Shown here piece after piece: positions 17,293 to 24,927 of a stretch of DNA of 34,788 nt. Position 1 is the stretch's first letter; every line of letters starts with the position of its first letter. The stretch covers positions 1 to 34,788 of the forward strand of contig JAESQP010000139.1 in assembly GCA_016765075.1 (NCBI GenBank), read 5' to 3'. Made by a program: the position numbers and the translations under genes. The DNA is from Gammaproteobacteria bacterium. Lineage in GTDB: Bacteria; Pseudomonadota; Gammaproteobacteria; GCA-2400775. The notes beneath the pieces were generated by a model, which saw only the letters and a list, made by a program, of their open reading frames with translations, did not search any database and had not been told where the DNA came from.

Positions 17293-17450
17293 GGAACCTC
17301 TGATGTGTCATGGAACACGATCTTGCGCCTAAACTCTTCCAGCTCTTCGTTGCTAATCTTGCCAATAGCCCCACTATTGACTGCGATTCGCGTCTCGATC
17401 TGAAAAATTTTAGACACAATCTCACTGTCCCAGACACATCAGAGGCTCCT
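17292..17450. repeat. CCTCTGAT-type palindromic element between fis and purH
   Basis: Terminal inverted repeats of 18 bases (17292-17309 and 17433-17450), 17 of 18 matching. The ends read AGGAACCTCTGATGTGTC and the complement of GACACATCAGAGGCTCCT. They match the ends of the element at 15914-16009, but the interior is unrelated and longer. The left end begins on the last base of the fis stop. A short minus-strand reading frame inside has no recognisable product. Confidence 0.75.
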
Positions 17451-23385: not shown

Positions 23386-23967
23386 CTATTTCAACACAGC
23401 CTGGACACTCTTGCGAAACTCAGGAACCAGCTCACGCTCGTACCAAGGGTTCTTTTTCAGCCACCGTTGATTGCGCGGCGAAGGATGCGGCAAAGGCCAA
23501 TACTGTGGTGCATAGTCACGCCATTGCTTAACGGTATCGGTCAGGGTTTGGCCCTTAACATCAAGATAGTGCTTTTGCGCATACTGACCAATGAGCAAAA
23601 TGGATTGCAAATTGGGTAACTGTTGCAGAATACGCTGATGCCATTGCTCTGCACATTCTTTGCGTGGCGGCAAATCGCCCGATTTGCCCGTACCAGGATA
23701 ACAAAAACCCATGGGCATGATGGCAATCGCGGGATGCGTATAAAAGGTATTACGACCAACCCCCATCCATTCACGTAAACGATTTCCACTGGGGTCGTTC
23801 CAGGGAATGCCGGTGGCATGCACCTTACGCCCGGGTGCTTGACCAATAATGAGTAATCGCGCCGTTTTGCCAGCGACCAGAACAGGTCGCGGCGCATTAG
23901 GTAAGTGCTCTGCACAAATCTGGCAAGCACGCACCTCACGCAACAGTTTTGCCAATGTTTCTTTCAC
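23386..23967 (-). CDS. Uracil-DNA glycosylase family protein
   Basis: A 193-residue member of the UDG superfamily (COG1573-like). Motif 1 is LLIIGQAPGRKVHATGIPWND (about 39-59), where the active-site region is GQAPG, and motif 2 is LPHPSPRNQRW, matching HPSPxN. Four cysteines, CQIC (15, 18), GFCYPG and KECAEQW, are placed as in relatives and might bind an iron-sulfur cluster. Activity on uracil in DNA is predicted from the fold only. The start is GTG at 23967 with no clear Shine-Dalgarno. It lies 13 bases after the coiled-coil gene on the same strand and may be read from that transcript. Confidence 0.85.
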   Translation of the reverse strand: MKETLAKLLREVRACQICAEHLPNAPRPVLVAGKTARLLIIGQAPGRKVHATGIPWNDPSGNRLREWMGVGRNTFYTHPAIAIMPMGFCYPGTGKSGDLPPRKECAEQWHQRILQQLPNLQSILLIGQYAQKHYLDVKGQTLTDTVKQWRDYAPQYWPLPHPSPRNQRWLKKNPWYERELVPEFRKSVQAVLK

Positions 23968-23980
23968 AAGAAAGAGGCCG

Positions 23981-24235
23981 CTATGGCCATATCACCGCAG
24001 TGCAACGCCTTATAATTCTTATTATTCGTTTAGCATTTTCTCTACGCAATACCATAGTCTTTTTCTTTGGAGTTATCGCTTTAATTTTTGATACTTCAAC
24101 AAGCGTTTCGATACGGACAACACGTTTATCTATATCGATCATTCGATCAGATAGTTTTTCTGTTTGTGTATTGAGCCGTTTAACTTCATCTGTTAGCTTG
24201 AGCGTGTCCAGTAATATACTTTTCCAAGCAGCCAT
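23981..24235 (-). CDS. Small coiled-coil protein, partner of the RHH gene
   Basis: An 84-residue protein not assigned to a family. Residues about 12-50 form a heptad-rich helix (LTDEVKRLNTQTEKLSDRM and onward to ETLVEV), likely a coiled coil. The C-terminal third is strongly basic (KKKTMVLRRENAKRIIRIIRR), suggesting nucleic acid or membrane contact. There is no signal peptide. The ATG at 24235 shares one base with the TAA of the upstream ribbon-helix-helix gene (TAATG), so the two are translationally coupled. The arrangement resembles a toxin-antitoxin cassette, but no known toxin motif is present. Confidence 0.6.
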   Translation of the reverse strand: MAAWKSILLDTLKLTDEVKRLNTQTEKLSDRMIDIDKRVVRIETLVEVSKIKAITPKKKTMVLRRENAKRIIRIIRRCTAVIWP

Positions 24236-24531
24236 TAAGTGGCTTGCCCCGCTACTATCGGTGAAACTGGCGAACGTAATTGTTTTAACGTTTTTGCGAC
24301 AACGCGATTCGTCTTTTTGGTCGAATGAATAGCCTCTTGCAATCTTTCTGAGACAAGCTCCATGAGCTCAGTGGCTTCATGTGCATTGCTGTTCGGGTCA
24401 AATGCCTCTATGGCCAATCTAACAATTTCTGACTCTGACTTGCCTTGTGATGCAGATAACCTGGAAAGCTTGTTCCGTTGTTTCTGACCAAGCATGATTT
24501 GTTTTCTTGACATATTGACAGCGACAGACAT
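24235..24531 (-). CDS. Ribbon-helix-helix DNA-binding protein (antitoxin-like)
   Basis: A 98-residue protein. Residues about 7-45 fit a ribbon-helix-helix domain: a short strand MSRKQIMLGQ, then helix KQRNKLSRLSASQG and helix SESEIVRLAIEAF, as in CopG/Arc-type repressors and many antitoxins. A second, helical half (about 50-90) could be a partner-binding region. AGGT about 7 bases upstream supports the ATG at 24531, although MSRK at 24513 is an alternative. It starts 20 bases from a large palindromic element, a natural place for autoregulation. It is coupled to the coiled-coil gene by a one-base overlap. Confidence 0.68.
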   Translation of the reverse strand: MSVAVNMSRKQIMLGQKQRNKLSRLSASQGKSESEIVRLAIEAFDPNSNAHEATELMELVSERLQEAIHSTKKTNRVVAKTLKQLRSPVSPIVAGQAT

Positions 24532-24551
24532 ATTAAATACCTATGTGGTCT

Positions 24552-24835
24552 TATTAACCCGGCAACCATATAGATCATGTTCAGGACTTCAAGCATAGAC
24601 CAGATCAAGGCATCACTGGCAGCCAATGGTGGTTCCATTAGCAACAGTGATAACGCCGAGCGGGGCTACGCTTGAAGTCCCTAACCGATTGTTTTTTAAA
24701 AGACAGCCGCTGTGTGCCGCTGCGCAGGCTGCGTTATCAAAGCTTGCTGTAGAACCACTACAGCGGCGCTTTGATGCCTTGCTGCGCAGCGGCACACAGC
24801 GGCTGAACATGATCTATATGGTTGCCGGGTTAATA
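24552..24835. repeat. 284-bp compound palindromic element with two related hairpins
   Basis: The termini are perfect 33-base inverted repeats (24552-24584 and 24803-24835), with TA at both ends. Inside are two hairpins in opposite orientation. Hairpin 1 (24585-24680) has 10-base outer arms GACTTCAAGC/GCTTGAAGTC. Hairpin 2 (24704-24805) has perfect 24-base outer arms. Read on the minus strand, the core of hairpin 1 has the same unpaired bases as hairpin 2: GCGTT, TT, loop AACCA, a 3-base bulge ending GC, and GCCTTG. The stems between them differ by paired changes. No transposase is present. From 24836 to 24927 I see nothing further. Confidence 0.88.
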
Positions 24836-24927
24836 TATTAGACTGACTATACACATACACACCCGCCGACACAGCCATGTACGTTAAGAACGTGTGAGTT
24901 TGCATTGCCGTATATCCTCGCCTCTTT

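Follow-up and report, generated by a model that had tools for sequence, protein, structure and literature searches.

A compound palindrome of 284 bp, located at positions 24552-24835 of the window (the whole stretch of gammaproteobacterial DNA that was analysed, 34,788 nucleotides), is probably a full-length, non-autonomous, MITE-like element of about 280 bp. It is best read as a member of a superfamily in which the terminal inverted repeats (TIRs) vary, a structured core is kept, mobilisation takes place in trans, and the core is probably read as a folded strand. The core-bearing elements are MITE-like, with interchangeable ends and one conserved fold, as indicated by two size classes, about 24 TIR types, target duplications, an empty site, and a DDE insertion sequence with matching ends. 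Bacterial MITEs are usually seen as reduced insertion sequences, each recognised by its ends; in the core elements, genera and classes have the interior in common, preserved as a fold, and it is the ends that differ. These elements apparently form a large, undescribed family of tiny gene-free mobile elements in Proteobacteria.

The element consists of two inverted copies of a bulged two-stem hairpin enclosed by TIRs. The TIR arms (24552-24584, plus strand, sequence TATTAACCCGGCAACCATATAGATCATGTTCAG; 24803-24835, minus strand) are 33 bp in length and 100% complementary, as had been claimed in the preliminary description, and the identical TIR is present in 40 distinct full-length copies. The left end reads TA+TTAA (24552-24557), in which the candidate target duplication, TA or TTAA, is palindromic and the two are inseparable; the right end reads TTAA+TA (24830-24835). 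Hairpin 1 (24585-24680, minus strand) contains structured core copy 1 (24601-24656, minus strand; 81.5 bits, R1). Hairpin 2 (24704-24805, plus strand) has a perfect outer stem of 24 bp and contains core copy 2 (24731-24786, plus strand; 68.9 bits, R1). The linker between both hairpins (24681-24703) occupies the position of a CCC-NNN-GGG mini-hairpin in other two-core elements. The layout common to both hairpins is GCGTT, stem 1, TT, stem 2, a 5-nt loop, stem 2', TGC or GGC, stem 1', and GCCTTG. Hairpin 1 on the minus strand is GCGTT-ATCACTG-TT-GCTAATGG-AACCA-CCATTGGC-TGC-CAGTGAT-GCCTTG, and hairpin 2 on the plus strand is GCGTT-ATCAAAGC-TT-GCTGTAG-AACCA-CTACAGC-GGC-GCTTTGAT-GCCTTG; this is the arrangement initially proposed, with the addition of one G.T wobble in stem 2 of hairpin 1. 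When both strands were folded and compared with shuffled sequences, z-scores of -17.2 (DNA) and -19.4 (RNA) were obtained, and none of 200 shuffles folded as well.

A covariance model of the 56-nt core was built from five copies. At E<=1e-6 it gave at least 52 core matches in the 2-Mb source genome (G000), a lower bound since scoring covered 150 of 550 candidates, and many matches in congeners; blastn with the window element found three more partial copies in the source genome. With a second model (E<=1e-4), 107 of 369 genomes from throughout the class yielded the core. Across the phylum it was found in 59 of 398 genomes (E<=1e-6), 28 of which represent one family of another class. Plasmids carrying core elements include those of Pseudomonas aeruginosa PA83, Azotobacter chroococcum, Halomonas, and Comamonas. 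Core copies sit unannotated on public plasmids, including one of P. aeruginosa, and the three plasmid records with gene tables have no annotation at the position of the element.

Two hairpin copies alone are insufficient to demonstrate covariation, which was therefore assessed in the wider family. A total of 80 loci were fetched and, together with earlier loci, yielded 113 aligned core matches in 111 distinct rows. Among these 111 cores, 88.8% of cells were paired, compared to 63% in shuffled and at most 48% in slid versions of the alignment, and there were 391 double-change cells versus 121 after shuffling. All 15 core pairs covaried, with changes on both sides (0 of 500 shuffles). For 62 additional distinct cores, most of them from other genera, the covariation score was 0.723 versus 0.211 when shuffled, and double compensatory changes affected 63 of 108 pairs in an alignment of 23 window-type copies. 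Among 42 non-redundant cores, GTT was conserved at 100% and GCCTTG mostly at 97-100% while the stems varied freely, the mean entropy being 0.72 for loops and 1.14 for stems. The preliminary description, which had noted paired stem changes around fixed unpaired bases and had made its reading depend on further copies and on covariation among homologues, is thus borne out on the first point in more than 100 copies, and on the second both in the source genome and across the family.

The same description had concluded that selection acts on a folded strand. Paired changes and fixed loops agree with this, but constraint on folded RNA or single-stranded DNA as such does not follow from them, as template switching could homogenise long arms. 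In the extreme case the fold would be under no selection at all, with template switching at palindromes copying mutations from arm to arm and so keeping the stems paired. The covariation does extend through the long arms and TIRs, where symmetry at the DNA level suffices, and solo ends of the window type resemble palindrome-mediated deletions. Template switching would, however, erase internal loops, and the asymmetric loops GCGTT/GCCTTG and TT/TGC are maintained, in sequence as well as in position, in over 100 copies from many families; moreover, elements with unrelated TIRs have the same core spacing. The asymmetry and conservation of the internal loops speak against template-switch correction as the explanation of the core, and a fold free of selection is considered very improbable.

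The 154 core-bearing elements collected were mostly either about 165 bp long with one core or 260-285 bp long with two cores pointing apart, the latter often with a CCC-NNN-GGG mini-hairpin between the arms that would give a cloverleaf. The outer inverted repeats surrounding the cores differed strongly and fell into about 24 TIR clusters, a number based on crude clustering in which some clusters may be related, and the distance from core to end was constant across unrelated TIRs. The constancy of loops and spacing suggests that the fold is read by a shared factor, some component of the cell that recognises it. A repeat of a different kind in the complete genome G126 (L378:1514-1789) has a related TIR (TTAGCCCG..CGGGTTAA) and encloses a GTAG-type REP pair, which suggests an exchange of TIRs and inner modules.

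Evidence of mobility was obtained for the GGAACCTCTGA type, the commonest TIR type among the core elements. One such element lies within the window at 17293-17449 (plus strand); it has a single core (17347-17402, plus strand; 54.2 bits, R1) and an IS5-type TIR (GGAACCTCTGA...), and is positioned at the stop codon of fis with CTAA on its left and TAA on its right. An exact, uninterrupted empty site beside fis was found in a congener. In 24 of 56 copies of this type, the flanks matched over exactly 4 bp, compared to 4.5 in shuffled data (maximum 10 in 1000 shuffles), and the duplications were mostly CTAA, TTAA, CTAG, or TTAG (YTAR). G126 contains autonomous elements of 1.19 kb that are flanked by CTAG or CTAA duplications and combine GGAACCTCTGA-type ends with a DDE_Tnp_1 gene; they lack the core. 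No DDE_Tnp_1 gene was detected in the source genome. The 4-bp YTAR duplications and the DDE_Tnp_1 element constitute a behaviour that we take to be IS5-like, and IS5-like YTAR sites were also observed in most other subfamilies with a readable target. The GAGACCTTTGCACGA TIR type apparently has an autonomous element as well.

Among named gammaproteobacteria, the window element has about 40 distinct relatives of full length. Its TIR type, TTAACCCGGCAAC, is represented by 41 copies in G126, versus 0 for a reversed control pattern, and copies occur in Sedimenticola, Thiodiazotropha, Tenderia, and Chromatiales. TA..TA flanks were found in 30 of 40 distinct full-length copies, with no longer direct repeat. 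The initial suggestion of a Tc1/IS630-type MITE is compatible with these flanks, but the duplication could equally be TTAA, which is present at both ends and is palindromic. The general features of a MITE, namely TIRs, no coding capacity, and multiple dispersed copies, were all found; a target duplication was found for the GGAACCTCTGA type, and the window type shows only TA/TTAA flanks. Structured recognition element and MITE had been offered as alternatives; each is supported, but the choice between them is not, as the data indicate both at once.

No autonomous element with the exact TIR of the window element was found in the loci examined, nor any TIR pair around a convincing transposase. 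Locus L238 (G126:C1, about 2439000-2441300) was considered as a candidate and rejected; it is an insertion sequence with its own ends (CACTAGTGTCCGGA) and a 398-aa DDE_Tnp_1 transposase, inserted in a solo window-type TIR palindrome. The exact empty site of the window element was not recovered in congeners. Congeners G002 and G003 lack a larger segment (23967-24927) and have 101-131 bp at that place; the segment comprises the element and a ParD-like antitoxin gene (24235-24531, minus strand; below the Pfam cut-off). In the family of G126, loci orthologous to that of one window-type copy appear to be without it, but divergence of the intergenic sequence prevents alignment there. In G004, a GGAACC-type element adjoins the same downstream gene as the window element does. 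The window element had no match in plasmids, phages, or E. coli (blastn, 20,395 E. coli records), and a search of viral contigs by TIR pattern gave none. Solo ends and collapsed palindromes of the window type also exist, and the solo ends look like palindrome-mediated deletions. At L206:480-515 in G126, only two fused window-type TIR ends are present, as a perfect palindrome of 36 bp (40 bp with flanking TA). The window-type copy at L259:4116-4444 has its hairpin 1 core inverted, with an extra nested hairpin in the loop.

Under the favoured reading, the superfamily, present in Gammaproteobacteria and some other Proteobacteria, would have kept the core and its spacing from the ends, and its TIRs (about 24 types) would have been swapped among members or have drifted apart. 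Mobilisation in trans, through recognition of the TIRs by DDE transposases, is supported for the GGAACCTCTGA type, and we infer it for the TTAACCCGGCAAC type of the window. The core would probably be read as a folded single strand, either single-stranded DNA or RNA, and the factor reading it, which would be the same in all subfamilies, may help transposition or survival of the palindrome. The conserved interior fold points to an unrecognised requirement (a host factor, a transposition enhancer, or protection of the palindrome) common to elements with many different ends. A bolder version, possible if doubtful, is that the core is a novel kind of structured cassette, portable and itself under selection, that passes as a hitchhiker from one set of transposon ends to an unrelated one and is mobilised or protected by a host or HUH-type protein recognising the fold; the TIRs would then be replaceable and the core would define the element.

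The core could also be a structured RNA (a processing, stability, or termination element) in the transcripts of neighbouring genes, with transposition only spreading it. In tandem-gene contexts within the genus, the GCGTT..GCCTTG strand coincided with the transcript in 28 of 35 cases (p = 5e-4), a bias that was weaker in a small set from other genera (5 to 3). The element folds strongly as RNA, and tail-to-tail placement is known for Pseudomonas stem-loop repeats (PMC2718517). Opposed to this, mismatched cells read in the GCGTT..GCCTTG orientation were more often A.C (120) than G.U (54), the reverse of what selection on RNA predicts, although the copies are not independent. The wobble-type mismatches thus favour the CAAGGC..AACGC strand, which is suggestive; this strand test was not used as proof because the copies are related and because it conflicts with the transcription orientation bias. 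Two-core elements also present one core per sense on each strand, there is no Rfam family at threshold, and the genes flanking core elements had nothing in common, with no consistent neighbour. A structured RNA is accordingly judged distinctly unlikely.

By its anatomy the element is a MITE, and by its core it resembles REP/REPIN doublets minus their tags and transposase linkage. REP, BIME, and REPIN sequences associated with RAYT share imperfect palindromes, a conserved unpaired tag, inverted doublets, and compensatory changes with the core elements, and REP dimers nested in long palindromes are known elsewhere (PMC3733652, PMC3116915). The core might therefore belong to a third REP/REPIN-like palindrome superfamily, for which RAYT-type Y1 (HUH) transposases, working on folded single-stranded DNA, would provide the mobility, with the TIRs as secondary outer stems. 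The imperfect palindrome, the unpaired CGTT / GCCTTG tag, the occurrence of singlets and inverted doublets, and the cloverleaf option all fit such an origin, and Y1 genes were present in 15 of 17 core-bearing genomes examined. The tag (GCGTT / GCCTTG) is, however, neither GTAG nor CGTC, and the cores lie inside elements flanked by target duplications, the TIRs of which correspond to those of a DDE element. No linkage to Y1 genes was seen, with none near cores in 11 congener loci and one in 30 others, about the level of chance, and G002 has cores and no detected Y1 gene. We regard a REP/REPIN-like origin as unlikely.

Consistent with the element not having been recognised initially as a named family, Rfam contained no family above the gathering score at the element, and only sub-threshold matches of miRNA-type hairpins were obtained. 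The literature searched, including by TIR strings, contained no description of the element and only unrelated papers for the TIRs; many subscription papers were outside its scope, and a prior description is possible. ERIC, RU-type, and other long palindromic enterobacterial elements are likewise small, mobile, intergenic palindromes of about 100-280 bp (PMC2759123), but the window element had no blastn match in the 20,395 E. coli records, and the two-core cloverleaf differs. IS5-superfamily and similar bacterial MITEs (reviewed in PMC10969869; Coxiella QMITE1/2, PMC5896051) are also short and gene-free with TIRs and target duplications, and have many intergenic copies, strong folds, and mobilisation in trans. 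Described MITEs have one TIR and one parental insertion sequence, whereas about 24 TIR types in many genera here share one core with fixed loops and spacing. The Pseudomonas intergenic repeats R6 (177 bp, with a 34-bp inverted repeat) and R200 (320 bp) are comparable in size and in having inverted repeats (PMC2718517); compared by description, R6 or R200 may be unrecognised members. Integron attC sites were considered and rejected, as GTT is followed by R and then mostly Y, not RRRY, and the RYYYAAC partner is absent. A CGTC-type REP palindrome at locus L005 (about 1351-1420) has a core element nearby, and both kinds of repeat thus coexist in one genome.
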